Assembly (NCBI GenBank): GCA_009711805.1
Contig: VEMX01000026.1
Location: 1 to 60,184 of the forward strand
DNA: 60,184 nt
Direction of reading: 5' to 3'
Source of the DNA: Balneolaceae bacterium
Lineage (GTDB): Bacteria > Bacteroidota > Rhodothermia > Balneolales > Balneolaceae
The stretch's first letter is position 1; every line of letters starts with the position of its first letter. This document shows, piece after piece, positions 6,492 through 27,797 of the stretch. The notes below the pieces were generated by a model. The model was not told the DNA's origin and searched no databases. It worked only from the letters and a program-made list of their open reading frames with translations. The translations under genes and the position numbers were made by a program.

Positions 6492-7625
6492 TTACTTCTT
6501 TCTTGGACCTGCCTTAAGTGTACCGGTCGCTCCTTTCTCAGCATCTACAAATTCATGGTCGATGAGGATGTATTTTCCTTCTTCAGGAACAATCATGTCT
6601 AATGTTGCGGAACCTGAGGATCCTACCAATACCGTTTGCATGCCACGCATTTCATTAAATGGGTGTCCTTCTTTCCAAACTCTGTCAAAGATACCGCCGA
6701 TTACGTGGAAACTGGAAGTACCGCTCGGACCATTGTTAGAGAAGTGGATACGGATTCTTTCGCCTTCGTTAGCTGTTAACGGATTATCGTGCATTACTGT
6801 TTGGTGACCGTTAAATACAACGTGAGAAGGATTGCGATTAGCTGCTGCGTCAAAATCGTACTGGTACAGTTCGCCGGGGCCTTTCTCAAGGTAGTACTCA
6901 GACTGAACTACAACATATTCTTTCGCTACTTCATCGTCTGTTGGATAACCATCTTTAGGAGATACCACTACAACTCCGTGTTGACCCATAGCTGTGTGCA
7001 TTAATACACTTGGAGTACCACAGTGGTAGATGTAACTGCCAGGGTAGTTCGCAATAAAATCGAATTTCACAGTTTGTCCGGGAGCAATCGTTCTCCACTT
7101 GTCATCTTTAGCTACGGTACCTGCGTGGAAATCCATAGAGTGAGGCATAGGCATTACAGCAGCTTTGTTTTTGCTGATATTATTAGCTGCTACTTGCTGC
7201 ATAAATGGAGCACCGCCTTTTGATGGTTCAGTAATGGTTACTTCTTCATCAGAACGGTTTTTCATGGTAAAAGTAATGCGATCGCCTTCTCTTACGTGAA
7301 GTACCGGACCGGGTACGGTTCCGCCAAATGTCCATGCATTATAACGAACACCTTCGGCTACTTCTATTTCCTGAACCATGATATCGATTCGTACTTCGTG
7401 ATGCTTGTTCCCTTCATAATCCAGGGGAGCAAGGTTTGGAAGCATAGTAACGTACTCACCCACTACAGGAGGGCCGTCGTAATCTTCAGTGAATACTTCT
7501 GCTTCGGGCATACCAAAAGTTTTACCATCCAGTTTGTATTCGGAACTTTGAGCAAATGAGGTACTCGCCAAACCGGCAAATAGCAACCCGAATATAAATG
7601 AGAGTGTTAGTTTTGAGACTTTCAT
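6492..7625 (-). CDS. nirK: Copper-containing nitrite reductase NirK (variant type 1 copper site)
   Basis: Reduces nitrite to nitric oxide in the periplasm. 377 residues with a signal peptide ending SFAQ and two cupredoxin domains. Type 1 copper ligands are His162, Cys202 and His210; type 2 ligands are His167, His201 and His307 (SSFHVIGG). The catalytic Asp is Asp165 (PHSMDFHAG) and the second catalytic His is probably His279. The Cys-x7-His spacing is that of the short-linker class II enzymes. The axial position, five residues after His210, is Gln215 rather than Met; a Met stands at 213. First gene of an operon with nirV-like, SCO and cupredoxin genes; an inverted repeat shared with the nos genes lies 27-44 bases upstream of the start. 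Confidence 0.93.
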   Translation of the reverse strand: MKVSKLTLSFIFGLLFAGLASTSFAQSSEYKLDGKTFGMPEAEVFTEDYDGPPVVGEYVTMLPNLAPLDYEGNKHHEVRIDIMVQEIEVAEGVRYNAWTFGGTVPGPVLHVREGDRITFTMKNRSDEEVTITEPSKGGAPFMQQVAANNISKNKAAVMPMPHSMDFHAGTVAKDDKWRTIAPGQTVKFDFIANYPGSYIYHCGTPSVLMHTAMGQHGVVVVSPKDGYPTDDEVAKEYVVVQSEYYLEKGPGELYQYDFDAAANRNPSHVVFNGHQTVMHDNPLTANEGERIRIHFSNNGPSGTSSFHVIGGIFDRVWKEGHPFNEMRGMQTVLVGSSGSATLDMIVPEEGKYILIDHEFVDAEKGATGTLKAGPRKK

Positions 7626-7651
7626 AAGATTGTATTTATGTATTGTAGTTT

Positions 7652-7669
7652 AAAGACTGTTTTGTCTTT
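7652..7669. promoter_or_regulatory. Putative NO-responsive operator upstream of nirK
   Basis: AAAGAC-N6-GTCTTT, a perfect inverted repeat, 27 bases upstream of the nirK start. Related repeats with the same arm and spacer lengths precede ric, the Rrf2 gene, the nos operon and the copper receptor operon. The regulator is inferred to be the Rrf2 protein of this window or an unseen Crp/Fnr-type factor. Confidence 0.65.
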
Positions 7670-9558: not shown

Positions 9559-10182
9559 TTACCCAATACAATAGGTGCAGGAAAAATCACCTTTGCGAAT
9601 GTGAGAAGTCCGGTCAACATTTTTACCAAACACTTTAGTGTAAAATTCTTTCTCCAGTCTGCACGGTGAATTCGTCACCTTAATAACTTCTCTGAATGGA
9701 CAATTACACTCTTTCACCGTCAACTTTTCTGTCTGAGGGTCAATCTCGTATTCGGGCATAAAACCTTCCTCATCCAGCATATCCTTTAGTACGTCTGCTT
9801 TTTCTTCCTCTGTTTGAACATGTGAGGTTTCCATCATTAATTCCAGCTTCTTATACCGGCGATCCCAGAATTTTTCAAAAAAAGTTTCTAACAGTTCCTC
9901 CTCCTCTTCTGCCTGCAAAAACCGGATAAGCTCTCTCATGAGCTGAGGTTCGTACGAAGGATACAGCCCATTGCCTTTTGTAGTGAGTTTAAATTGCAAA
10001 CTGGGGCGACCTCTTCCCGAGCGATCATAACTACGCTCCACATAATTATCCCTTTCCAGCTGGGTAAGATGTTCCCGTACCGTAGTTTTGGCCATATCGG
10101 TGAGAGCTACCAATCCATCAATATTGGTTTGGCCCTGCTGTTTTATAAGATCCAGCAGCTTTTTCTTTGAAGCAGTAATCAT
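9559..10182 (-). CDS. Winged-helix regulator with C-terminal cysteine cluster (SufR-like)
   Basis: 207 residues. The N-terminal 70 residues form an ArsR/DeoR-type winged helix (LVALTDMAKTTVREHLTQLE, then a RSGRGRPSLQFKLT wing). The C-terminus carries Cys159, Cys161, Cys174, Cys202 and Cys205, arranged like the Fe-S binding tail of SufR-type repressors. It probably senses iron-sulfur status, oxygen or NO. Its start overlaps the stop of the hemerythrin-like gene by 4 bases, so the two are translationally coupled, which suggests a common stress response. Confidence 0.75.
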   Translation of the reverse strand: MITASKKKLLDLIKQQGQTNIDGLVALTDMAKTTVREHLTQLERDNYVERSYDRSGRGRPSLQFKLTTKGNGLYPSYEPQLMRELIRFLQAEEEEELLETFFEKFWDRRYKKLELMMETSHVQTEEEKADVLKDMLDEEGFMPEYEIDPQTEKLTVKECNCPFREVIKVTNSPCRLEKEFYTKVFGKNVDRTSHIRKGDFSCTYCIG

Positions 10183-10931
10183 AAAGTTGCTGCCGAATTT
10201 AAGGAATGCAGTTTGCTCTTTAGTTTTTGAATCATGTATTGCTGTTCCAAAAAATGATGTTTCTCTATATCTTTATGCAGTTTTTCTAAGGTGCCATATA
10301 ACAATAAGACTGTAGAAGAAGCATGCTCAGGTGCTGTAAAGTGATTGCTCAGAGTATAAATACGGTGGCTCAAATACTCAATTTCATCCTGATCTTTTTG
10401 AATGAGCTGTACTTGCTTTCGCAATGCTTGTACCACTCCATCCTTGGGATCACCATTTTTTCGAAACAACTTCAATAAACAAGGGAAAAACTTTTCTTCT
10501 TCAAACTTAAGATGAAGCTCAAGCTTATCTTTTAGCTTTTTGAAATACCATCTTAATTGTTTTAAATTCAGATTGCCCTCTTCTCCATTGCATGCCCGGC
10601 GTTCATAATCACTTGCATCTTTGATCAACATTCGGGTGTAGTAATGATGTTCTTCTTCCAGGTATTTTATAATCAATTCAACCGACCAACAAAAAATACC
10701 GGAAGGACAATCGAATCGGGCTCCTTTTTTCAGGTGATCCAACTCTTGCTTTAAATCATATTCATCAACCTTTTCGGAAGAACATACTTCCATTAAGGTT
10801 TTATTTTCATTATCCCGGATAGGAAGCCCCAACCGTTTAAAAATCTCGGAAGCTCGCTGTTGTTCCAGCATCACTTCCGTAACGGTTTTGTTTAAAATAT
10901 CTGCCGGTTCTAACTCTGTGGATTCCATCAT
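10179..10931 (-). CDS. Hemerythrin-domain protein with degenerate RIC N-terminus
   Basis: About 250 residues from the ATG at 10931; a longer reading from 10979 is possible. The first 70 residues resemble the ScdA/DUF542 domain of iron-sulfur repair proteins (QRASEIFKRLGLPI) but lack the Cys-Cys pair seen in the RIC encoded at 18938-19633. The rest is a hemerythrin HHE four-helix bundle with iron-ligand patterns EEHHYYTRML, HLKFEEEKFFP and LHKDIEKHHFLEQ. Probably binds a di-iron centre that reacts with NO or oxygen. Overlaps the downstream regulator gene. Divergent from ctaA. Confidence 0.75.
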   Translation of the reverse strand: MMESTELEPADILNKTVTEVMLEQQRASEIFKRLGLPIRDNENKTLMEVCSSEKVDEYDLKQELDHLKKGARFDCPSGIFCWSVELIIKYLEEEHHYYTRMLIKDASDYERRACNGEEGNLNLKQLRWYFKKLKDKLELHLKFEEEKFFPCLLKLFRKNGDPKDGVVQALRKQVQLIQKDQDEIEYLSHRIYTLSNHFTAPEHASSTVLLLYGTLEKLHKDIEKHHFLEQQYMIQKLKSKLHSLNSAATL

Positions 10932-11172
10932 CTCATACTCAATAAATTGCAATTGATGGACCAATGATAGGCAAACCAATTTTTTTTATCAATAAAAACG
11001 GTTAAAAACGTTTTTAATATTGTATCTCAATAATAAGGCGCTTAATTTCAGAGCCATTATTCATCAGCAAAAAGGCATAGCCGTTGGTGATGATGCAAAA
11101 AAGAAGTGGCCAACACTATATCATGATCTACAATGTGGAGCCCTATATTTTCAGCAAAAATTATTTCACAGT

Positions 11173-14773: not shown

Positions 14774-15181
14774 CTACTTATTATAAGTAACAATCCGTTT
14801 CCAGTGCAGAAATACGAACAAGATTACTCCTCCCATCTCCAGGCACCGGCCCATCCAACTACCGGCAGAAGGCAAGACATCCAGTTGTGAAAGAGATACC
14901 ACTATAATTCCCGTATTCAGCACCCCTATCATAGCATAGGCCAGAATTGGATTTCCCCTGCCCTGCTTCCCAAAATAGCGGGGCAGAATCCAGTAAGCCA
15001 CCCCCAGGGTAAGCTGTACCACCCAGCCAATCAGCATAAATTCTATATGAACCGGAAGTACCGCCCAGAGTGGAGCATAAAAATTGAATGCTTTGTTCAG
15101 CAACAGCATTACCCCCATCGAGGCTCCCATCAACAAATAGGCCAACGATAGTTTCACCATTATCCTGGAAGGCAATGTCAT
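14774..15181 (-). CDS. Small four-helix membrane protein, heme-copper-oxidase-like motif
   Basis: 135 residues with four predicted membrane helices. The second helix region reads VHIEFMLIGWVVQLTLGVAYWILPR, a pattern (His, then M-x-x-G-W, then G-x-x-x-W-x-x-P) that recalls helix 2 of heme-copper oxidase or NO reductase subunit I, where the His binds low-spin heme. It is far too short for a complete oxidase. Start overlaps the stop of the preceding, similar gene by 4 bases. Probably forms a heterodimer with that protein. Function unknown. Confidence 0.6.
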   Translation of the reverse strand: MTLPSRIMVKLSLAYLLMGASMGVMLLLNKAFNFYAPLWAVLPVHIEFMLIGWVVQLTLGVAYWILPRYFGKQGRGNPILAYAMIGVLNTGIIVVSLSQLDVLPSAGSWMGRCLEMGGVILFVFLHWKRIVTYNK

Positions 15182-15621
15182 GACTTCCTCTTTGCTCTCT
15201 TTTTCTTAATCCGCTGCTTTTTAGACATGATACGGGGCCATATCTCGCGGATGTAGCTGAGTAAGGCCATAAACTGTAATACCGCCGAAATGGCCAGCGT
15301 TATTTTCCATCCCCAGGCTCCTGATACTTCCAGCATAGGTTCTGAGACAACCCTGAGTATCAAGCCAATATTCAATAAAAAGTACGTAATCCACGCCCAA
15401 CGCTGATTGTGGAATTTCTCGTCCTTAATACGCCCCGGAAACATCCAAAGAGATACCCCGATTATAACCTGGGTAATCCATCCCACCATGAGCATATGCC
15501 AAAACAATGGAACCAAGGCAGCCACTGTAAGAGCATCAATCTGTTGAATAATCCCCAGCAACAGCGATACCACAAAGAATATTAATCCGGTTTTAAGAAA
15601 TAAGCGGGTTATAAGAGGCAT
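15178..15621 (-). CDS. Small four-helix membrane protein, paralogue of the next gene
   Basis: 147 residues, four membrane helices and a very basic C-terminus (MSKKQRIKKKRAKRKS). It shares with its neighbour the motif FWHMLMVGWITQVIIGVSLWMFPG, so the two look like an ancient duplication. Overlaps the downstream gene (ATGA), and lies 42 bases after a larger membrane protein with a similar His motif. Likely one three-protein complex; heme binding is inferred from the motif only. Confidence 0.6.
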   Translation of the reverse strand: MPLITRLFLKTGLIFFVVSLLLGIIQQIDALTVAALVPLFWHMLMVGWITQVIIGVSLWMFPGRIKDEKFHNQRWAWITYFLLNIGLILRVVSEPMLEVSGAWGWKITLAISAVLQFMALLSYIREIWPRIMSKKQRIKKKRAKRKS

Positions 15622-15663
15622 ATTATAAAGATGTTATTGAATTCAGAACCATTACTTTATGGG

Positions 15664-16932
15664 TTATTCGGAAATACCTGCAACTTTGCCCGGAGGAAAT
15701 ACCTCATCTTTGTGTTTTTCTTTTGTTCGCAGGACTTTTATCCACAAAGCCGTTATGCTGACCACCGGCAGTATTGCAACAATGGCTACTACATTATAAA
15801 CCCATGGACAGGAAAGAGGGGCAGGCCATAAACGGCTAAGTAATACCAAGCTTAAAATCACCAGGAAAACTGAGCCAATAACCAAGTGTATATATATTCT
15901 CTCTATTCGAACATATTCATTTAAATACAAAATCATCGTTGTTGTTAAGGCACCCAACAAAAGTACATGCAGATACAATACACGTATACCGTGTGCCCAA
16001 ACCCATATTTCGGGAGAGGTGATAGAAGCTGTGAGCTGCATTATTCCTTTAACCAATAAATAAAACAGAGGCCACAACCACAGGGTCTTTGATGCCTTTC
16101 CCGATTGTATTACAGAATACACAAACAGTAAAATAGACTGAGATATAAGAAACCCACCAACCCGGGCAGACACTGAAAGTGGGATGCTGACTAAAGACTC
16201 TGACAACCCATACGGAAATGTAAGTGGTGCTCCAAAAGCGATAAGCCCCACCATTACGGTTGGTGAAATAACAAAATCTTCTTCCTCCATATTTAGTCCC
16301 CTGGCAAGTATACCCAGCAGCATAATAACTACCCACCCTTCCGTAAATGTTGACAGGAAAAAGTGAGTAAGAGCTTTACCAAACAGAGGCCCGCCAAAGC
16401 CTATGACTCCTGTAAATGCGATACCCCAAGCTCCCAGGGAACTTATAAACAGCATAGTAAGGGCGCCTTCAAACCATATACTGGGTTTAAAGTCGGGGGC
16501 TTTATATCGGTAGATAAGATAACCCGTCATAAACAGGTACCAGCCAATCATCACCATGCCCGAAAAAATAGCCGAAATGGGAATTAAGGAATCCCCCAAC
16601 TGTACCGGCTGGTATCCCCATCTCAGGAAGGCGGGGAAAGAAACTAAACCAAAAATAAGAATAACCCAGAATGAGATTCTCATCATCCTGTCATGAAACA
16701 GCGATGAATAACCCGGTACTATATTGTGCTTTATGAGGTATAAAGGAAGCAAGGAAGCCCATCCAAAAAACATAAGATGGGAATGCGCATGCCGCATATT
16801 CACCAGGTTCAGCTGATCCGGCAGCAGACCAATGAACCCCAGGCGGTACAAGAAGCCGGTAATCCCTGCCAGTATGAAGCAAAAAATGGCCCATTGCCAT
16901 ATGCTCGAATGTTTATTGAACATACTCCCCAT
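15664..16932 (-). CDS. Polytopic membrane protein with HAHSHLMFFGW motif
   Basis: 422 residues with about 12 predicted membrane helices. The second helix starts with RHAHSHLMFFGW (His48, His50, His52), matching the His-x(2-4)-M-x-x-G-W pattern in the two small proteins downstream and resembling the low-spin-heme helix of heme-copper oxidases or NO reductases. Further membrane histidines occur in ALTHFFLSTF and WAHGIRVLYLHVLLLGA. It is neither recognisable NorB (no Glu-rich catalytic helix that I can identify) nor NnrS (its usual motifs are absent). Located between the NO-defence genes and the two small homologues, it is a candidate for NO or heme handling; function unproven. Confidence 0.6.
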   Translation of the reverse strand: MGSMFNKHSSIWQWAIFCFILAGITGFLYRLGFIGLLPDQLNLVNMRHAHSHLMFFGWASLLPLYLIKHNIVPGYSSLFHDRMMRISFWVILIFGLVSFPAFLRWGYQPVQLGDSLIPISAIFSGMVMIGWYLFMTGYLIYRYKAPDFKPSIWFEGALTMLFISSLGAWGIAFTGVIGFGGPLFGKALTHFFLSTFTEGWVVIMLLGILARGLNMEEEDFVISPTVMVGLIAFGAPLTFPYGLSESLVSIPLSVSARVGGFLISQSILLFVYSVIQSGKASKTLWLWPLFYLLVKGIMQLTASITSPEIWVWAHGIRVLYLHVLLLGALTTTMILYLNEYVRIERIYIHLVIGSVFLVILSLVLLSRLWPAPLSCPWVYNVVAIVAILPVVSITALWIKVLRTKEKHKDEVFPPGKVAGISE

Positions 16933-16990: not shown

Positions 16991-18829
16991 TCAGGCCATT
17001 TCTTTTTCTTTGTGAGCTTCTACTTTGGCAAACAATGTTGCCAGTCGATTTTTTTGAACAGTAGCTGTTTCCTTTATCGACTGAAGATTTTCATCTTCAT
17101 AGGGTTTTTGTCCGGCTATTTTCAGGCAGTATTCTATTCCTTTTTCAAGGTTTTTTCGGAAACGGTTCAATGTTCGGAGATCTGCTTTCAGGTCTTCCGA
17201 TTGTTTAATCAGTTCTTCAAAATAATCCACATACATAACCATCTCTTTGGCAAACATATGGGGGCGTTCTTTCGGCACTAAAGATGAAGCTCTTCCATAA
17301 ATATGATCCACCATTTCCTGCAGGCTGTAGGTAGTATCGAACCAGGCTACATTGGGACCGGGACAAATAGCCTGGGGTGCGCGATGGGGTTTCAAAATTC
17401 CCAAAGTAATCAAAGCTCCATTGCCAAGATGCTCACACAAACATGCTTTATCGAGGACTTTTTCCCGCAGTTCATCTTTCTTTTCTTCCGAAATATCGCT
17501 GTGGTTAATCTGATCAATTTTTAACAGTTGGTACTGATTGGAAGCCGTACAAATAGGATTTTCTGTAAACTCCGTATTTGATTCCAAAAACCCTTTTGGA
17601 CATTGAGAGCCGGGCTTTCCCTTTTCAATTCGTTGCTTATGCCATTTATGTGATCCGGTTTTACGCACATTATTAAACGGTACGCCCAACGGGGATACCC
17701 CACTCAGGTACAGGTCTTCTTCTTTTGCCTCTTTCAGTAGATTCAATGTTTCCTCATCAACGGTAGTGGCTTCAGGAACCATCAAAAAAGGACTTCCCCA
17801 GCCAGTTGCATCCATTCCAAAATCCTGTAACAGTCTGCGGGCTTCTCCACTTGTTCCTATTCCTCCCTGCACCGTTATTCGCGGCTGCCCTACTTCCCAG
17901 TCACTGTTATATCCATGATCGGTATTCTCGCTGTAATAGCGCTCAATCAAAGGTTGGATGGAAGAGCTCAACATTTCTTTTTTCTCTTTAAACTCTTTGA
18001 GTAAGGATGGAAGAAGATATCCATCAGAAGCAAAAGCATGGCCGCCACAATTCAGTCCGGACTCCACTCGGTATTCAAACACTTCCAGTCCCTTTTTAGC
18101 AAGGTACTTGCCCTGAATTAAAGCCGAGCGAAAATCACTTACCTTCAGTATTATTTTTTTCTTGATGTTGCCTTTTACATCGCGGTAAAAATCTTCAAAC
18201 TCAGCCAGGTAGTTATACAATCGTGGGTTAAAGCCTGCCGATAAAATAAGACTGGAAGAAAGTTTACTGTTCGCAAATCCGCGCAACGCTGCACAACCAT
18301 CACTGAATTCGGAACTCATCGGCTGACCATTATTGGTATAGCTGAAGCCGTCAACTTTGGCCATGATATTTACATCAATAGAGCCTGTTTTCATTAATTC
18401 GTTTAGCTCTGAAACCAGCTTTTGCCTTGCATTTTCTATATTAACTGCCATCAAGTCCAGGTATTTTTTCTTGAGCTCGCTGGTGTCGGGCAGCATTTCA
18501 AAATATTTAGCTTTTTCATTCTTCTCGAAGAAAGGCTGCTTTTTAATCCCTTCAAATTTCTCCTGTACTACAGACTGTACCAGATCCAGGTAGGCGGTAA
18601 TTCGCTGAGCGCGCCCATCTTTGGCCTTGCGGGGAATATTTTTGTATGGCCGGTTGAATACACTGCTGTAGTGCTTGCGGATGCGTTCCACCAATAAGTC
18701 ATCAACAATTGATATAACCGAATTAATGCCATAGGGGGCTACCCTTATGGGCGAGTCGATTGAATGTCCGGTTCCCATTACTGGAATAGAAAATGTATGT
18801 AAAGAGTTCTGCATGAAATTAAATATCAT
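16991..18829 (-). CDS. Large conserved cysteine-containing protein, function unknown (possible TIM-barrel flavin/Fe-S enzyme)
   Basis: 612 residues (a start at Met6, 18814, is equally possible). No signal peptide or membrane helix, so cytoplasmic. The segment VQGGIGTSGEARRLLQDFGMDATGWGSPFL (about 320-349) is reminiscent of phosphate-binding loops of FMN TIM barrels such as nitronate monooxygenase. Cysteines at 261 (NCGGHAF), 410 (SQCPKG), 427, 463 and 465 (ACLCEHLGNG) and 489 (AICPGPN) could hold an iron-sulfur cluster. It lies between RIC and the HAHSH membrane proteins inside the denitrification block, so a role in NO or reactive-nitrogen metabolism is plausible. I do not recognise a characterised homologue. 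Confidence 0.6.
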   Translation of the reverse strand: MIFNFMQNSLHTFSIPVMGTGHSIDSPIRVAPYGINSVISIVDDLLVERIRKHYSSVFNRPYKNIPRKAKDGRAQRITAYLDLVQSVVQEKFEGIKKQPFFEKNEKAKYFEMLPDTSELKKKYLDLMAVNIENARQKLVSELNELMKTGSIDVNIMAKVDGFSYTNNGQPMSSEFSDGCAALRGFANSKLSSSLILSAGFNPRLYNYLAEFEDFYRDVKGNIKKKIILKVSDFRSALIQGKYLAKKGLEVFEYRVESGLNCGGHAFASDGYLLPSLLKEFKEKKEMLSSSIQPLIERYYSENTDHGYNSDWEVGQPRITVQGGIGTSGEARRLLQDFGMDATGWGSPFLMVPEATTVDEETLNLLKEAKEEDLYLSGVSPLGVPFNNVRKTGSHKWHKQRIEKGKPGSQCPKGFLESNTEFTENPICTASNQYQLLKIDQINHSDISEEKKDELREKVLDKACLCEHLGNGALITLGILKPHRAPQAICPGPNVAWFDTTYSLQEMVDHIYGRASSLVPKERPHMFAKEMVMYVDYFEELIKQSEDLKADLRTLNRFRKNLEKGIEYCLKIAGQKPYEDENLQSIKETATVQKNRLATLFAKVEAHKEKEMA

Positions 18830-18937: not shown

Positions 18938-19633
18938 TCAGTTTAACCGTTGTTCGAGTTTAAGGGCCTTTGGAAACAGGATGTTGTTTTCCAGGTGCAC
19001 ATGCTTGTGCAGATCTTTTTGAAAACCTTCCAGGTTCTGGAATAACACCCGGTACGAGGCACACGCAGTAGATGGAGGGTTAAAACCATTTGTCAGCTGC
19101 TCAATCTCTGCCATTAAGGCGCCGGCTTTGTCATGTTCTTCTTCCAGCGCTTCGATGATAGCTTCTTTTACCCCTCCTGCTTTTTCCTGTTGTACTAATT
19201 CTTTAATCTGAGGGAATAATTCTTCTTCCTCTTTTAATAGGTGTCCGGTCATCTCTTCACTCAACAGTTGTACCTTCTGGAGTATATCAAGCAATTCGGG
19301 ATCTCTTTTGCCATGTACTCTGGCCACTTTTTCTGCATAAAAGCCTATTTCCGGAAGCATCTTTCGCACAAAGTTGTGATGGTTATTCACAATGTAATCT
19401 ACCAAAAAATCGGGCGACCAGTCTTTGTAATTATGATTGTCGCTTCCTGTTTCAGTTAAGGTTGAAAGATCTCTCATCACGGCCTCAAAATCGATGCTCT
19501 TTTTGCTGCATGCCTGCTCTAAAGGTACTTTTCCGCCGCAGCAAAAATCCAGTCCATAGGAACGGAATATTTGAGAAGCTCTGTAATCGTCTGCTACTAT
19601 TTCGCCTACTGTTTTTTGTGATAGTGTTTCCAT
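18938..19633 (-). CDS. ric: Iron-sulfur cluster repair di-iron protein RIC (ScdA/YtfE)
   Basis: 231 residues. Repairs iron-sulfur clusters damaged by nitric oxide or peroxide. The N-terminal ScdA domain has the Cys31-Cys32 pair in LDFCCGGK; the hemerythrin part supplies the di-iron ligands in NNHHNFVRKM, GHLLKEEEELFP, EEEHDKAG and LHKHVHLENNILFP. The length matches YtfE. An inverted repeat shared with nirK and nos genes lies 13-30 bases upstream, so it is probably NO-induced. It sits between the Rrf2 regulator and the unknown 612-residue protein. Confidence 0.93.
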   Translation of the reverse strand: METLSQKTVGEIVADDYRASQIFRSYGLDFCCGGKVPLEQACSKKSIDFEAVMRDLSTLTETGSDNHNYKDWSPDFLVDYIVNNHHNFVRKMLPEIGFYAEKVARVHGKRDPELLDILQKVQLLSEEMTGHLLKEEEELFPQIKELVQQEKAGGVKEAIIEALEEEHDKAGALMAEIEQLTNGFNPPSTACASYRVLFQNLEGFQKDLHKHVHLENNILFPKALKLEQRLN

Positions 19634-19645
19634 AATTCCAATATT

Positions 19646-19663
19646 TAAGAGTATTTTGTCTTT
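19646..19663. promoter_or_regulatory. Putative NO-responsive operator upstream of ric
   Basis: TAAGAG-N6-GTCTTT, same layout as the nirK and nos sites, ending 13 bases before the ric start codon. Confidence 0.6.
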
Positions 19664-19678
19664 TTTGTGATAAAAAAA

Positions 19679-20131
19679 TTATTGCCAGCTAAAATGTCCG
19701 TCTGGCGTAATTCTAAATTTATTGGCTTTTCCTTCTTTAGCCATTTCTTCGAGAGTGGTACGGGCTAACATATCTTTAATGCCTTCTCGCACCATTGCCC
19801 AGTTATTGTGAAGCGGGCATGGATCCGATGATCCGCAGCCCGGCAATCCCAGCGCACATTCTACAAAAAGGTCCGGACCATCAATAGCTATTACAACATC
19901 CAGCAAAGTAGCTTTACGCCCTTTGGCAGAAAGTCGTATTCCTCCATTGGGTCCTTTATAAGATTCCATGAGGTTGTCAGCCGTAAGATTTTGCAGAATC
20001 TTTGTGAGGAAATGAAATGAAATATCGAGCTCTTCGCTCACTTCACGGATAGAGTTATACTGCCCTCTATTGTGAGCTGCAAGGTAAAGACTTGCCCTTA
20101 TTCCATACACAGAAGATTTTGATAACAACAT
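19679..20131 (-). CDS. Rrf2-family regulator, NsrR-like
   Basis: 150 residues. N-terminal winged helix (SSVYGIRASLYLAAHNRG ... ISFHFLTKILQNL), dimer helix, and three cysteines, Cys92-x6-Cys99-x5-Cys105, which bind a [4Fe-4S] or [2Fe-2S] cluster in NsrR and IscR. Its neighbours (ric, nos) and the repeat in its own promoter support an NO-sensing repressor that autoregulates. IscR-type iron-sulfur sensing is the main alternative, but no isc or suf genes are present. Confidence 0.85.
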   Translation of the reverse strand: MLLSKSSVYGIRASLYLAAHNRGQYNSIREVSEELDISFHFLTKILQNLTADNLMESYKGPNGGIRLSAKGRKATLLDVVIAIDGPDLFVECALGLPGCGSSDPCPLHNNWAMVREGIKDMLARTTLEEMAKEGKANKFRITPDGHFSWQ

Positions 20132-20142
20132 ATAAAATTATT

Positions 20143-20160
20143 TAAGAGTTTAATGTCTTT
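20143..20160. promoter_or_regulatory. Putative autoregulatory operator of the Rrf2 gene
   Basis: TAAGAG-N6-GTCTTT, 12 bases upstream of the Rrf2 start codon; nearly the same sequence as the ric site. Confidence 0.6.
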
Positions 20161-20245: not shown

Positions 20246-21037
20246 TTAAAGATCCATCTTTTTAAACCTGCTGGTTCCTCTTAACAGAGGCACTAACGTC
20301 CAGCTAATTAAGCTTAAAGAGGCTACCACAATTCCCAGAGAGCTACCGAAGAATCGATTGAATACCGCTCCGGTATATCCCATCAAAGCTGAAATATCAA
20401 ATTCCAGTAACACGATAATACGGGCCAGGTCTATGGGGTTTAGCATACTCATAGCCAGCATGGGTTTCTCTATGGGGTAATCTCCCAGGATAAAAATGGC
20501 CAGCAATACCAGTCCATCGTATAAAATAGCCAGAAACAACCATCCTACCAGTGCAAAACCCAAGCCCTTAATGCGATCTTCGAAGTACTTGAGCCCAATC
20601 CAAAAACCGATACCCGTAAATAAAAAGGATAGTATAATACCCAGCACCAATATCATTAAAATTGAATGAACGGCCATGGAAAAGAGCATTCCACTGTAGA
20701 CCATGGGGACTGTTACGCCAAACGTAAAAGCCGCGGCCAGAGGGATAGCTAAGCCTCCATACAGCCCCCAGAATATCGTTTTCCGGTTTAAAGGTTGCAC
20801 AAGGAGCAACTTGGTAAACTCTCTGGATTGATACAGGTATAAACTCCCATATATCATCCCTACCAAAGGCACCAGTAACAACATGATATTTGAAATACTG
20901 AGCATTGCTTTTGGTCCGGCTCCCCCAAAACGAATCAAGGCATCAGATATAAGCCAGTAAATCAAAGCATATCCAATAATCCATTTTCCCCTGAATAAAT
21001 CTTTCCACTGATATTTTAATATTGTGAGCGTCTTCAT
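20246..21037 (-). CDS. nosY: NosY, ABC permease of the nitrous oxide reductase maturation system
   Basis: 263 residues, six membrane helices (ABC-2 type). With NosF and NosD it forms the NosDFY complex that supports assembly of the CuZ copper-sulfide cluster of NosZ. Identification rests on its position directly after nosF, with a 4-base overlap, and on the helix pattern. Last gene of the nos operon. Confidence 0.88.
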   Translation of the reverse strand: MKTLTILKYQWKDLFRGKWIIGYALIYWLISDALIRFGGAGPKAMLSISNIMLLLVPLVGMIYGSLYLYQSREFTKLLLVQPLNRKTIFWGLYGGLAIPLAAAFTFGVTVPMVYSGMLFSMAVHSILMILVLGIILSFLFTGIGFWIGLKYFEDRIKGLGFALVGWLFLAILYDGLVLLAIFILGDYPIEKPMLAMSMLNPIDLARIIVLLEFDISALMGYTGAVFNRFFGSSLGIVVASLSLISWTLVPLLRGTSRFKKMDL

Positions 21038-21744
21038 GCGGCCTCCTCCTCCATCAGTTTAGCTACGGCTCCTTCCAATCGCTGTTCTTTGTGTTTCTTA
21101 ATCAGAGCATCCATCGGCCCGTGATATTTTATTTTTCCTTCAACAATAAAAATCAGGTAATCGGCTAATTCTTCAATCTCGCTCATAATATGAGTGGTTA
21201 GCAGAATGGTTTTCCCTTCCTCTTTTTGATCTTTTACCAGTCGTTTGAATTGCACACTGGAACGAGGGTCCAAGCCTGCGGTGGGCTCATCAAAGATGAG
21301 GATATCGGGATTAAACATCATTGAGAGAACGGCTCCTACTTTCTGCCGATTTCCACCCGAGAGTGTACGCATCCGCTTGTTCAGTTCGGCTTCCAGGCCA
21401 AAGTGTTGAATCAACCGCTGCTCTACAGAGGGGATGTTTCCTCGAATTTCTTTTATAAAATTAAAGAGCTCATTTACCGTCATATTTTCGGGATAACGTG
21501 CTGTCTGAGGCATATATCCTATCTTATTCCGGTACTCCCAGTTTCCGCTTATTTCTATGCCGTCAACTAAAACTTCCCCTTCATCTGGTTTTACCAGTCC
21601 AAGTACGGTTTTAATGGTGGTGGTCTTTCCTGATCCATTGGGACCTACAATTCCGGTGGCCTGCCCTTTAGGCAATACCAGTTCCAGCTTGTCCAAGACA
21701 GTCTGCGAACCAAAGCTTTTACTCAATCCTTTTATTGTAATCAT
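21034..21744 (-). CDS. nosF: NosF, ATPase of the NosDFY complex
   Basis: 236-residue ABC ATPase: Walker A GPNGSGKTTT, Q-loop region GYMPQTARYPE, signature LSGGNRQKVG, Walker B ILIFDEPTAGLDP and the H-loop in LLTTHIMSE. Overlaps nosD upstream and nosY downstream by 4 bases each, giving tight translational coupling. It energises the maturation complex for the copper-sulfur site of NosZ. Confidence 0.93.
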   Translation of the reverse strand: MITIKGLSKSFGSQTVLDKLELVLPKGQATGIVGPNGSGKTTTIKTVLGLVKPDEGEVLVDGIEISGNWEYRNKIGYMPQTARYPENMTVNELFNFIKEIRGNIPSVEQRLIQHFGLEAELNKRMRTLSGGNRQKVGAVLSMMFNPDILIFDEPTAGLDPRSSVQFKRLVKDQKEEGKTILLTTHIMSEIEELADYLIFIVEGKIKYHGPMDALIKKHKEQRLEGAVAKLMEEEAA

Positions 21745-22979
21745 GGCGCTTGTGTCATTAGGGGTTTAGGGTCATATAATGTTTCCGGAGTTAGTACCGG
21801 CATAAATTTTTCTGCAGCATCCAGCATATCTATAAGCAGGCTTCGGAGTAACAACAATGATTGTGGCTGCCGTTCTACCAAGACACTGAACAACCGAACC
21901 GGGTGATGAGGCACGTCTCCTATTCCATCCCGATCCAGGTCGTACCCTTCGTAGGCGCTCCAGTAATTCCCGGTAAAAGTGTTGAAATTCTGCCGGCTGT
22001 TTGTGACCAGTTCAAAAGTATTGGCCACAAAACTATTCCCTGAAAATACGTTATCCGTAGAATTTGCCATCAGCTTAATGGCCCATCCGTTTTGTGAAAA
22101 AGTATTCCTTTTTACCGTGTTGCGGCTGGTTGCTTCTATATATAGTCCCACTGAATTATTGGCAAAGGTGTTGTCTTCAATTTTGCTCCTGTTAATCTCT
22201 TTCAGCAGCAAGCCATAAGCCGATGAGCCCCAGTTATCTTCAAAACTGTTTCCAATAATATTCACATTATTGGTATACATCACGGCTACTCCCCCGCCAT
22301 TGTCGCGGAAGGTGTTTCCTATGTAAGTGCAATTGTCGGAGTACATGAAGTGAATACCGTAGCGAATATTTTCCTCACTCACATTATTCCGGATAGTGGC
22401 GCCGTCCACAAATTCAAAATACAGTCCATCGCGGTGGCCTCTTACATAATTACCTTCAATATGAGCATCTTTACTATACCACAGGTGAATTCCATTCCCT
22501 GAAGAAGTCTCCCGTTCACCAGAGGCCGACAGGTAGTTGTTCCGAATACGCGTTCCCTCCGATTCTGCCACATAGATTCCGAAAAAATTATCAACCAGGC
22601 GTACATCTTCTATAAGGGTGTTCTTTGTTTGATCTACCAGTATACCTGCATAATCTTCCATAAAACTGGTACTGGCATGTTGTACCTCTATCCCTTTCAG
22701 CGTCACATCATCTGATGTTATAATGATAATAAATCCCTGGCGATCTCCATCTATTATGGGGTAATCTTCCCCAATAATAGTAAGGGGTTTGTTTACCTCA
22801 ATATCATGCTCTTTATATTTCCCTTTTTGAATGATCAAAGTATCGTAAGGAGCGGCCAGGTTTATTCCCTGCTGTATACTGTTGATCTCTCCATTAGGAG
22901 ATATTTCAACAAGCTGAGCCTGAACGGGCATGCTCATCAGGATACCCAGTATTGGCAATATGAATTTCAGGTATTTCAT
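21741..22979 (-). CDS. nosD: NosD, periplasmic beta-helix maturation factor
   Basis: 412 residues with a signal peptide ending PVQAQ and a right-handed parallel beta-helix of carbohydrate-binding/CASH repeats (many NNVSEENIRYGIHF, NTFRDNGGGV-like turns). NosD is the periplasmic subunit of NosDFY. Its C-terminus (HHPVRLFSVLVERQPQSLLLLRSLL) is the usual NosD ending. The gene starts 19 bases after nosL. Confidence 0.93.
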   Translation of the reverse strand: MKYLKFILPILGILMSMPVQAQLVEISPNGEINSIQQGINLAAPYDTLIIQKGKYKEHDIEVNKPLTIIGEDYPIIDGDRQGFIIIITSDDVTLKGIEVQHASTSFMEDYAGILVDQTKNTLIEDVRLVDNFFGIYVAESEGTRIRNNYLSASGERETSSGNGIHLWYSKDAHIEGNYVRGHRDGLYFEFVDGATIRNNVSEENIRYGIHFMYSDNCTYIGNTFRDNGGGVAVMYTNNVNIIGNSFEDNWGSSAYGLLLKEINRSKIEDNTFANNSVGLYIEATSRNTVKRNTFSQNGWAIKLMANSTDNVFSGNSFVANTFELVTNSRQNFNTFTGNYWSAYEGYDLDRDGIGDVPHHPVRLFSVLVERQPQSLLLLRSLLIDMLDAAEKFMPVLTPETLYDPKPLMTQAP

Positions 22980-22997
22980 AGCATTTCAATATCTCGG

Positions 22998-23468
22998 TTA
23001 GTGCCCTGAAGACCTGGTCTTCTTTAGCTTTATTGTTTTAACCTCGTTCCAGGAAAGCATTTTTCCCGGTTGGGCTTCCAGATGTTTCCTGGCGGCCTCG
23101 GTATTGGGCAGTGCCAGTAATGAGGCTCCCATAGGGCTGTTTATTTTTTCACTTTGTATAAACTGGGCCTGGGAAGCATCCAGCCAGTTTCCCGGATTAT
23201 TGAAATTGTTCACCCAGTACTTGGCACCTACAGTGTTTTCCCTATTGTTGTTTTGGTATTCAACCATGCATTCAATAGCGTCAAACTTAACGGCCTTTCC
23301 TTTTTCTGTAATCATCTGGGAAGCAAAACGGCCATCCGTAATCATCATTTTACAATGAGTGCATTCATCACTTGCATAATGAATTTCTACCGGTTCCTGG
23401 CTACAGGAAGCCAACAATAGACTGACCCCTATTACAGCAAAAACTTTATATATTGTTTGTGTATTCAT
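22998..23468 (-). CDS. nosL: NosL, copper-delivering lipoprotein
   Basis: 156 residues. Lipobox LLASC (Cys22) anchors it to a membrane. The copper(I) motif is ECTHCKMMITDGRFASQM, as in characterised NosL, which hands copper to the NosDFY/NosZ assembly path. Lies within the nos operon between a membrane protein gene and nosD. Confidence 0.92.
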   Translation of the reverse strand: MNTQTIYKVFAVIGVSLLLASCSQEPVEIHYASDECTHCKMMITDGRFASQMITEKGKAVKFDAIECMVEYQNNNRENTVGAKYWVNNFNNPGNWLDASQAQFIQSEKINSPMGASLLALPNTEAARKHLEAQPGKMLSWNEVKTIKLKKTRSSGH

Positions 23469-24189: not shown

Positions 24190-26163
24190 TCATTGACCAG
24201 TTCCGTATTTAAAGTCAACATTTGAGCTCTCAGGTGATACCCGTACGTATCCCTGCATTTCCTGGTGAAGAGCTGAACAGAAATCGGTGCAGTAGAATGG
24301 ATATACACCTACTTCCTTAGGTTCCCAGGTGAGTGTTAATGTTTCGCCCGGCATAATTAACAATTCAGCTGTATTTGCCCCTTTAATGGCAAAGCCGTGC
24401 GGTACATCCCAGTCTTGTTCAAGGTTGGTTACGTGGAAGTACACTTTGTCTCCCACTTTTATCCCTTCAATGTTATCTGGTGAAAAGTGACTACGGATCG
24501 TGGTCATATATACATGTACTTCTTTTCCGTCACGCTCAATGCGTGTTTGCTTCTCGCTTGTTGCTCTGTATGGGTGGCTGTTTTCTGCCAGGTCGTAAAA
24601 CCTTTTTTGTCTCTTGATTACTTTTTCAGCCGCTATACCCTGAGCATAGTGAGGTTCACCCTCTGTGGGGAAATCAAGCAGCAACTGCATTTTGTCTCCG
24701 GAAATATCAATCAGTTGGGCAGAGTGGAACATTTCAGGACCGGTGGGCAGATATCGGTCTTTGGTAATCTTGTTAAGAGCTACCAGGTATTTACCATCGG
24801 GTTTCTGGCTGTCGCCACCAGGGATCATAAGGTGACCCGGAGAGTAGTATGTGCCAATACGGTCTACCACTTCTGTTTTTTCAATATCCCACTTCACAAT
24901 CTCTGAAGAAATAAAAGCAGTGGTGTAGGCGTACCCTTTTCCATCAAACTCGGTGTGCAGGGGACCTAAACCTGGGTTTTCTACTTCGCCGTGAAGAATA
25001 GAATCGTACTTAAGTACTGGAATCCCCATTACTTCGCCTTCATAATTTTCACTGTCAATTGACTCTATCATTTTGGCAAAAGAGTGTACGGGAATTACTG
25101 TAGACAGCTTACCCCCCGCTACGATATATTTACCGGTAGGATCAACATCAACCCCGTGAGGAGATTTCGGAGTCGGCAAGAAATATACAAGTCCATCCAG
25201 TTTCCGCGGATCCAGAACCCGTACCTCTTCGATGACCTCAGTTTTTACAATACCGCCTTCATCATGATCTACATAATTGCGAACGTGCTTACCGGGAAGC
25301 ATTTCCCCTTTTCCTTCTTTCGCATATTCGGCAGCTTTTTCCCAGTTAATGGCCGCAATGAAATCCTTGTCATTTTTAGATGCATTGATTTCGAGAAGGG
25401 TATGAGCTTCTTCACTATTATAACTGGTAAAGAACGCCCATCCGTCAGAAGGACCTTTACCAGCATGCGATAAGTCATAATCAAACCCAGGCATCAGGAT
25501 CTGGAAATCTACATTCATTTTACCTTCGCCAGATACTTTGATAAAAGAAATGGTGCCTTTAAACGTCTCAGCATATGAATCAATGGCTGCATCCATGTTC
25601 TTCATATTCTCATCCATGGGGATACTAAAACGGGTTGCAGCAGAAACATACTCCGTATTGGGTGTTACAAAAGCTGAAGCATGGTTACCGGCTGAGTTGG
25701 GAATCTCGATGATTTCCTGTGTTCTGAACTCATCCAGGCCAATACGGGCTATACGCGGCGTGTTGTTTTCATTGATAAAAATCCACCGGCCATCCGTTTC
25801 ACCATTGGTTTGAGAAAGTTCGGGGTGGTGAGCATCTCCCCAGGGAACAAATCCATGGGAGGTATTCAACATATTCTTGGTTTCATCAGTGTAACCATAT
25901 CCATTTACAGCTGCCTGTGAAAATACTGGAACGGTAAATAAGTGTCGGCCAGAAGGTATTCCATAAATTCCAAGCTGCCCGTTATATCCTCCAGACATAA
26001 ATCCGTAGAATTCATCATATTCCCCTGGTGCTACATATACTTTTTGCGCAGCATCGGTGTTAGAACTAAAATCTCCCTGGCTACTACATCCATACAGCAT
26101 TACGCCAATCAATGTAATAACCGGCAGTATCCAGAACCGATGATTATGTGTTTGTTTCTTCAT
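24190..26163 (-). CDS. nosZ: Nitrous oxide reductase NosZ, clade II (Sec-exported, lipoprotein signal)
   Basis: Reduces N2O to N2 in the periplasm. 657 residues: seven-bladed propeller with CuZ histidines (GDAHHPELS, GNHASAF, SPHGVDVDP, GPLHTEFD) and a C-terminal cupredoxin domain carrying CuA. The CuA motif FYCTDFCSALHQEM has Cys-x3-Cys-x3-His-x2-Met, with a further His in DVPHGFAI. The N-terminus lacks a twin-arginine motif and instead ends in a lipobox (MLYGC, Cys26), typical of clade II Sec-type enzymes. Second gene of an operon beginning with a cytochrome c. Confidence 0.96.
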   Translation of the reverse strand: MKKQTHNHRFWILPVITLIGVMLYGCSSQGDFSSNTDAAQKVYVAPGEYDEFYGFMSGGYNGQLGIYGIPSGRHLFTVPVFSQAAVNGYGYTDETKNMLNTSHGFVPWGDAHHPELSQTNGETDGRWIFINENNTPRIARIGLDEFRTQEIIEIPNSAGNHASAFVTPNTEYVSAATRFSIPMDENMKNMDAAIDSYAETFKGTISFIKVSGEGKMNVDFQILMPGFDYDLSHAGKGPSDGWAFFTSYNSEEAHTLLEINASKNDKDFIAAINWEKAAEYAKEGKGEMLPGKHVRNYVDHDEGGIVKTEVIEEVRVLDPRKLDGLVYFLPTPKSPHGVDVDPTGKYIVAGGKLSTVIPVHSFAKMIESIDSENYEGEVMGIPVLKYDSILHGEVENPGLGPLHTEFDGKGYAYTTAFISSEIVKWDIEKTEVVDRIGTYYSPGHLMIPGGDSQKPDGKYLVALNKITKDRYLPTGPEMFHSAQLIDISGDKMQLLLDFPTEGEPHYAQGIAAEKVIKRQKRFYDLAENSHPYRATSEKQTRIERDGKEVHVYMTTIRSHFSPDNIEGIKVGDKVYFHVTNLEQDWDVPHGFAIKGANTAELLIMPGETLTLTWEPKEVGVYPFYCTDFCSALHQEMQGYVRVSPESSNVDFKYGTGQ

Positions 26164-26209: not shown

Positions 26210-26680
26210 TTATTTTATATCTGAAGCCAAATATTCAGCGATCGCTCTAGCCTCGTCTTGTGACAGATTTTGATTAGGCATAGGAGTCATAAATTCCTGA
26301 AGCTTCTTTTTGGCCTCAGGATGTTTTTTAACCATACCGTCCGGATTTAAGATCATGTTCATTACATATGCAGGAGTTCGAAGCTCCAGAATATCTCCAA
26401 GAGCGGGACCTACATAGCGTTCATTCATTTTGTGGCAAGCCGAGCATTTTAACTCAAAAACCTCTGCCCCTTTCTGTGCTATCTCTGCGTCAATTTCACC
26501 GATTACAATTTCTTCAGTAACCGGCCCTATACCATTCTTAATTTCAAATTCAGACAAACCGCTTTCTGAAGTTGTTTTTGGTGATGATTTTGAGGCAGCA
26601 TCTCCCCCATTTCCACCGCAGCCGATAACCAGTACCGACACGGCAATCATGGTTGCAAATAGTAGTTGAATAGTTTTCAT
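26210..26680 (-). CDS. Monoheme c-type cytochrome lipoprotein
   Basis: 156 residues. Lipobox VLVIGC (Cys21), then a class I cytochrome c domain with CSACH (Cys79, Cys82, His83) and a likely axial Met in EFMTPMPNQ. First gene of the nos operon, 46 bases before nosZ. Probably the electron donor to the CuA site of NosZ, since clade II operons lack NosR and often carry cytochrome c genes. A shared inverted repeat lies 29-46 bases upstream. Confidence 0.9.
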   Translation of the reverse strand: MKTIQLLFATMIAVSVLVIGCGGNGGDAASKSSPKTTSESGLSEFEIKNGIGPVTEEIVIGEIDAEIAQKGAEVFELKCSACHKMNERYVGPALGDILELRTPAYVMNMILNPDGMVKKHPEAKKKLQEFMTPMPNQNLSQDEARAIAEYLASDIK

Positions 26681-26708
26681 GATGATTTGATCGTATTGCG
26701 AATTGTTT

Positions 26709-26726
26709 TAAGACAAATTTGTCTCT
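26709..26726. promoter_or_regulatory. Putative NO-responsive operator of the nos operon
   Basis: TAAGAC-N6-GTCTCT; the core AGACAAATTTGTCT is a perfect 14-base palindrome. Lies about 29 bases upstream of the cytochrome start. Confidence 0.65.
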
Positions 26727-27321: not shown

Positions 27322-27339
27322 TAAGACAAATGACTCTTA
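27322..27339. promoter_or_regulatory. Putative NO-responsive operator overlapping the start of the copper receptor operon
   Basis: TAAGAC-N6-CTCTTA, the same family as the nirK and nos sites. Unlike the others it covers the predicted ATG at 27330, so either the transcript is leaderless or the true start is further downstream (Met16 at 27375). Confidence 0.55.
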
Positions 27340-27797
27340 AAAATACATATTATCGCATCGCTTCAATACTACTAATGGCAGTTATGATTTGGAACGTGGC
27401 CGGATGGCTGGGGATGGGATTGCTGGATATGCATGCTCATTCGCACGAAAAAGGCGAGCATTGTGAAGTTTCGTTTTGCTATTGTGAGATAGAAAATGGC
27501 AATAAGATTTGTACCTGCCACCACCCTGAACTTCATGCTCAACAAAACCAGGCACCAAATCATCCTGAGACGGAACCTGATACTTCGGAATCGGTACATC
27601 AATTTTGTCATTATACCCCTTCACACCCAAATCCGGAACAGAGCGAAGCACTGATAAGCTTTACTTCCTTTAATACCATATTACCGCCAGCACAAGTTGA
27701 GTATATGGTTTTCACTACTTCCGAATACCATAACGATATGGACAGCAGCCTCTTAACCGGCCATTTCATCGATCTCCTTCGCCCGCCCAGGAGATAG
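27330..27797 (+). CDS. Small His/Cys-rich exported or membrane-anchored protein
   Basis: 155 residues. A basic start and a hydrophobic helix (about 9-33) are followed by a probable metal-binding region: MHAHSHEKGEHCE, SFCYCE, KICTCHHPELHA, HQFCHYTPSH. Seven cysteines and more than a dozen histidines suggest copper or zinc binding. It opens the plus-strand operon with a Met/His-rich lipoprotein and an OprC-like receptor, so a role in copper capture for NirK and NosZ is likely. No named family recognised. Confidence 0.65.
   Translation: MTLKNTYYRIASILLMAVMIWNVAGWLGMGLLDMHAHSHEKGEHCEVSFCYCEIENGNKICTCHHPELHAQQNQAPNHPETEPDTSESVHQFCHYTPSHPNPEQSEALISFTSFNTILPPAQVEYMVFTTSEYHNDMDSSLLTGHFIDLLRPPRR

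Follow-up and report, generated by a model that had tools for sequence, protein, structure and literature searches.

The window analysed here, a stretch of 60,184 nucleotides from a Balneolaceae genome, carries on its minus strand three consecutive genes for membrane proteins, which we designate TM422 (15664-16932; 422 aa, 12 transmembrane helices), S147 (15178-15621; 147 aa, four helices) and S135 (14774-15181; 135 aa, a four-helix paralogue of S147). As the first-pass annotation had described them, the reading frames overlap or nearly abut (42 bp between TM422 and S147, a 4-bp overlap between S147 and S135), and all three are conserved. The trio lies, on one strand and in an order repeated in relatives, behind a gene for an Rrf2-family regulator, presumed to be NsrR-like (19679-20131; TIGR00738 above cut-off, the NsrR model under its cut-off), ric, the first gene of the trio's run, which encodes a RIC/ScdA iron-sulfur cluster repair di-iron protein (18938-19633; TIGR03652 at 248 bits, cut-off 204.7), and the gene for a conserved 612-aa protein, U612 (16991-18829), without a Pfam or NCBIfam match. 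In several Balneolaceae U612 keeps this place, flanked by RIC and TM422. Also on the minus strand are nirK, encoding the copper nitrite reductase that is the source of NO (6492-7625; Cu-oxidase domains, TIGR02376 at 1.4e-57, under the curated cut-off), nosZ for a Sec-dependent clade II nitrous oxide reductase (24190-26163; TIGR04246, 933 bits), the accessory genes nosL, nosD, nosF and nosY (20246-23468; TIGR04247 for NosD), whose order is kept in relatives, and a cytochrome c gene heading the nos run (26210-26680; PF00034). A separate pair of genes near nadA (9559-10979) encodes a second hemerythrin/RIC-like protein together with a SufR-like regulator. We found no paper on TM422/S147/S135-type proteins in the literature and no TM422 match in a plasmid collection.

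AlphaFold2 models of TM422 and S147 (pLDDT 93.3 and 93.7, respectively) agree with the proposed 12-helix and four-helix topologies and with a motif in helix 2 (residues 43-58 of TM422, 36-60 of S147). The motif itself is present in all three proteins far above chance, but its form had been given wrongly as His-M-x-x-G-W; it reads H-x4-G-W in S147 and in TM422 (at H52), and H-x6-G-W in S135 and in TM422 (at H50). Structural alignment upheld the suspected relation to heme-copper oxidase (HCO) subunit I, which TM422 matches along its full length (395 residues, best Z 31.9, rmsd 3.2; Z 28.5-29.9 against NorB of cNOR), while the best match of S147 is the last four helices, i.e. the last third, of the same subunit (Z up to 14.5). 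This fold of TM422 rules out a transporter. Sequence searches support the relation for the four-helix proteins: their profile matched only CcoN of cbb3 oxidase among 177,635 PDB sequences (best E 4.6e-6), and S147 and S135 match PF00115 weakly (32.8 and 26.3 bits, both under the curated cut-off of 34.8), whereas a single-sequence search of the PDB with S147 gave no match. The TM422 profile likewise matched no PDB sequence, and TM422 does not match PF00115 and falls under every Pfam model; COX1 matches at E up to 0.1 were found for 52 of 53 four-helix relatives versus 7 of 68 TM422 relatives. Judged by predicted structures and sequence matches, TM422, S147 and S135 turn out to be putative stripped-down, split relatives of respiratory oxidases.

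The histidines that had been called heme-copper-like occupy positions matching the low-spin heme ligands of HCO subunit I. Of the TM422 histidines, H48, H50, H52 and H322 occur in every relative (68/68) and H190 in 57/68; apart from a partly conserved residue 314, there are no other conserved histidines. The TM2 low-spin heme histidine of CcoN (H59) aligns with H50, motif register places H322 at the TM10 position, and H50 and H322 would thereby fit a bis-His low-spin heme pair. Unlike in HCO subunit I, position 320, the place of the high-spin heme proximal histidine, holds Tyr in 61, Phe in 6 and Trp in 1 of the 68 relatives, and the same relatives have neither a conserved TM7 His pair nor a CuB/FeB His set. 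The four-helix proteins, separate thirds of an HCO subunit I, divide the ligand positions between them. With the Pro at the end of helix 2 as reference, position -22 is His and position -20 Glu in S135-type proteins (19/19), and S147-type proteins have His at -20 and none at -22 (29/29); in CcoN, the low-spin heme ligands lie at -22 on TM2 and -20 on TM10. H42 of S147 is at the TM10-type position, and the His of S135, with the Glu two residues on, is at the TM2-type position. From this pattern we infer that one heme may be shared across the S147/S135 interface, the TM2-type ligand coming from S135 and the TM10-type ligand from S147. Single four-helix relatives from other Bacteroidota have His at -22 in 5/5 cases and at -20 in 4/5. 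At three loci (L183, L188 and L189), a single four-helix protein with both histidines has as neighbours an HCO of 542-544 aa and a cupredoxin-like protein of 182 aa, the TM6 His apparently being replaced by Asp (GLDLIAD) in L183 and L189; at seven others (L182, L184-L187, L190, L193), a four-helix protein is the partner of a 12-helix protein of 421-422 aa that has PF00115-like parts, often beside DUF2249 proteins.

A precedent for four-helix membrane subunits with an interface heme is provided by styrene oxide isomerase (8pnu), whose trimer holds heme b at the subunit interfaces (PMC11374702). This enzyme catalyses a different reaction and has no sequence match to the four-helix proteins; S147 aligns with it at Z 9.5 over 124 residues. 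The likeness possibly reflects a distant link between styrene oxide isomerase and the HCO fold, but such a Z is common among helical bundles. The authors of the isomerase structure report no substantial DALI match. DUF2871 (PF11070) also comprises four-helix proteins and is matched by 5 of 53 S147/S135 relatives (best E 1.9e-5, 25.4 bits, under the cut-off of 27.4).

Upstream of several of these genes we found an operator-like palindrome of the pattern AAGACA-N6-TCTTAAA. On the minus strand, it occurs 11 bp before ric (AAGACAAAATACTCTTAAA, 19644-19662), before rrf2 (AAGACATTAAACTCTTAAA, 20141-20159) and, with one mismatch each, before the cytochrome c-nosZ run (26707-26725) and 25 bp before nirK (7650-7668); an exact copy on the plus strand (27323-27341) overlaps the start of a 155-aa reading frame at 27330. 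Four occurrences were observed in the window against 0.19 expected, a number reached in 0/100 shuffles (at most two mismatches to a slightly stricter form), and three of the four exact matches in the whole genome fall within the window. At one mismatch, the genome-wide count does not exceed the reversed-pattern control (18 versus 25); hence, what counts is where the copies lie and that they are conserved. Among relatives, the operator precedes Rrf2 in 35/53 cases (at most two mismatches) and RIC in 23/47, versus 35/1047 control genes, these counts not being independent, as some genomes are represented by loci from both genome collections. It also stands directly before TM422 at two loci (L080, L087) and before CtaA-TM422 at a third (L097). 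The candidate operator is predicted to link ric-U612-TM422-S147-S135 with nirK, nosZ and rrf2, and it recurs across Balneolaceae. The NO-handling context suggested earlier therefore stands: the trio shares an operon with RIC and the Rrf2 regulator, the palindrome is common to nirK and nosZ, and the association with NirK holds in 15/15 genomes. Near-exact palindrome copies were also noted before two related PLP-enzyme-like genes of the same genome (L221:1554-4465, contig C33), homologues of which lie near U612 and TM422 at L044, L074 and L082. Tandem TAGAC-N6-ATCTATTAA motifs between a second Rrf2 gene and the eNOR run (L067:10002-10360) are perhaps the operator of a second regulator.

Given these results, we consider it probable that the trio is an HCO-derived, NnrS-like membrane heme module that has lost its catalytic site, with NO protection as its most likely role. 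This reading builds on the fold, the conserved ligand positions, the conserved operon, the shared operator and the co-occurrence of the genes, all of which are observed. From these we infer heme binding, complex formation, a response of the regulator to NO and a protective function, as follows. The three proteins would be membrane b-type heme proteins descended from the HCO subunit I fold, controlled together with RIC, NirK and NosZ by an NO-responsive, NsrR-like Rrf2 regulator. TM422 would have kept the bis-His low-spin heme pair while losing the CuB/FeB ligands and the His of the high-spin heme, and S147 and S135 would probably pair around one shared heme. Acting at the membrane like NnrS, the trio may bind or buffer NO or pass electrons, and would thereby keep nitrosative damage to iron and Fe-S centres in check during NO production by NirK. 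NnrS belongs, with dnrN/ytfE (RIC), to the core NsrR regulon (PMC1274295) and is reported to protect the iron pool without direct NO removal (PMC9246220). Like TM422, it is a multi-helix membrane protein; it is found in NO regulons alongside RIC, as is predicted for TM422, and it has a TM2 His-x-His motif and a TM10 His-x4-Gly at similar positions. Some four-helix relatives weakly match its model (PF05940; best score 24.9 bits, under the cut-off of 28), but the model finds no match in the TM422 family, and the trio consists of one 12-helix and two four-helix proteins; thus, the analogy to NnrS rests on regulon and fold. A profile comparison with three NnrS proteins, sequences too few to decide, gave no significant relation. 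The Balneolaceae genomes hold no NnrS above the model cut-off.

The distribution of the genes bears on the best-surviving alternative, which is nevertheless unlikely, namely that the trio serves the assembly of NosZ or another terminal reductase, or its electron supply, and is no NO protein at all. Among 296 sampled genomes of the phylum, TM422 was found in 31, strong four-helix matches in 43 and NosZ in 99; TM422 and NosZ occur together in 25 of the 31 TM422 genomes (p 1.5e-8), related genomes not being independent, so that this and the other p-values serve as guides only. Moreover, the nos run often ends with TM422, after NosY-CtaA and beside HemN. However, six TM422 genomes in the family have no NosZ match, the four-helix pair is found in rrf2-ric operons devoid of nos genes (L166, L167, L170), and TM422 is absent from many NosZ genomes. 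Relatives of TM422 are also held by Chloroflexota, with both four-helix genes adjoining at one locus (L112) and one of them at two others (L108, L124). In Fodinibius/Aliifodinibius, TM422 is fused to or lies next to a cytochrome c'-like protein and a truncated hemoglobin. At L046:8750-10378 the hemoglobin is fused to TM422; at L045, L048, L075, L080 and L082 a free one, together with a cytochrome c'-like protein, separates TM422 from S147.

The first-pass annotation had also raised the possibility of an alternative NO-reducing complex, arguing that norB, norC and qNor are lacking. This is true of the window, but a search of the whole genome for an NO reductase found a candidate of the eNOR type on contig C28, which rules out a genome without any such enzyme. 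The HCO set of this genome comprises an aa3 oxidase, a cbb3 oxidase, the eNOR-like protein and a degenerate paralogue. In the eNOR (C28:37534-39258), GHMSQQ (His+4 = Gln) replaces the active-site Tyr, a substitution diagnostic of eNOR (PMC8756737), HH and HFH are present and all metal ligands are kept; a CuA subunit II, a 174-aa CoxB-like protein with CNEFCGIGHHMM, is encoded just upstream. The trio shares the HCO subunit I fold with eNOR, which adjoins TM422 in one genome (G085), but lacks both the full set of metal ligands and the CuA subunit. The degenerate paralogue, a 484-aa HCO subunit I without the CuB His pair, also lies just upstream of eNOR (L067:10357-11811, contig C28), and similar frames of 479-508 aa lie near eNOR in four other genomes (G270, G167, G296, G308). 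At L061:5989-10203, a CuA subunit, an eNOR subunit I and a 264-aa protein precede TM422 within a single run. eNOR-like proteins scoring at least 437 bits were found in 12/296 sampled genomes.

Without the CuB/FeB His pair and the His of the high-spin heme, the trio is unlikely to reduce NO in the manner of an HCO; on account of these missing ligands, and because the genome has its own eNOR, we reject a canonical NO reductase. What is left of the earlier proposal is an unusual NO reductase filling the step from NirK to NosZ, with a relocated metal site formed by H48/H52 of TM2 and H190/E198 of TM6, a low-spin heme in TM422, and S147/S135 as electron input sharing a heme. Room for such an activity comes from the 58 Balneolaceae genomes sampled, among which 15 good-quality ones carry a NirK ortholog. 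TM422 and the four-helix pair are present in 15/15 (Fisher 5.3e-5 and 1.2e-5), eNOR in only two (G000, the window's genome, and G061), and the other 13 have no eNOR, cNOR or qNOR, only aa3 plus cbb3 or Tyr-bearing ba3 oxidases (assigned from length and score, and at four loci from the active-site Tyr as well). These four loci (L255-L258) belong to HCOs of 561-570 aa from genera g7 and g8, which were considered as NO reductases but carry the oxygen-reductase Tyr (GHxxVY). NosZ is present in 7 of the 13, and the Balneolaceae sample holds no flavodiiron-length match, matches to ODP (PF19583) being open frames of about 58-282 aa, which we take as other metallo-beta-lactamases. In addition, three invariant TM2 histidines in TM422 exceed the need of one heme, and in G085 eNOR is directly followed by TM422. 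Against this stand, besides the eNOR of the window's own genome, the Tyr, Phe or Trp at the high-spin heme position and a TM7 without a His pair, the presence of TM422 alongside nos genes in three genomes without a NirK match (G123, G199, G115) and of the four-helix pair in one with neither NirK nor NosZ (G139), and the fact that it is not unusual to find nirK without nor (PMC8756737). We therefore rank an unusual NO reductase as less likely than NO protection, and regard it as rather improbable. Least probable of all is a heme-based membrane NO sensor signalling to RIC or the regulator. Such a sensor would be in keeping with the conserved heme-ligand positions, the place of the trio within a regulator-RIC operon and a role proposed for NnrS (as reported in PMC5710167), but all three proteins lack a signalling domain, and in some genomes TM422 and the small proteins are found apart, at different loci.

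These results assign hitherto unnamed membrane proteins to the heme-copper superfamily and to a predicted NO regulon. The apparent split of one heme site over two four-helix subunits bears on the origin of the three-part oxidase fold. An HCO-type NO reductase is lacking from most of the NirK-bearing Balneolaceae examined, several of which have NosZ; in these bacteria the trio, most likely a module for NO protection, is the constant companion of NirK.
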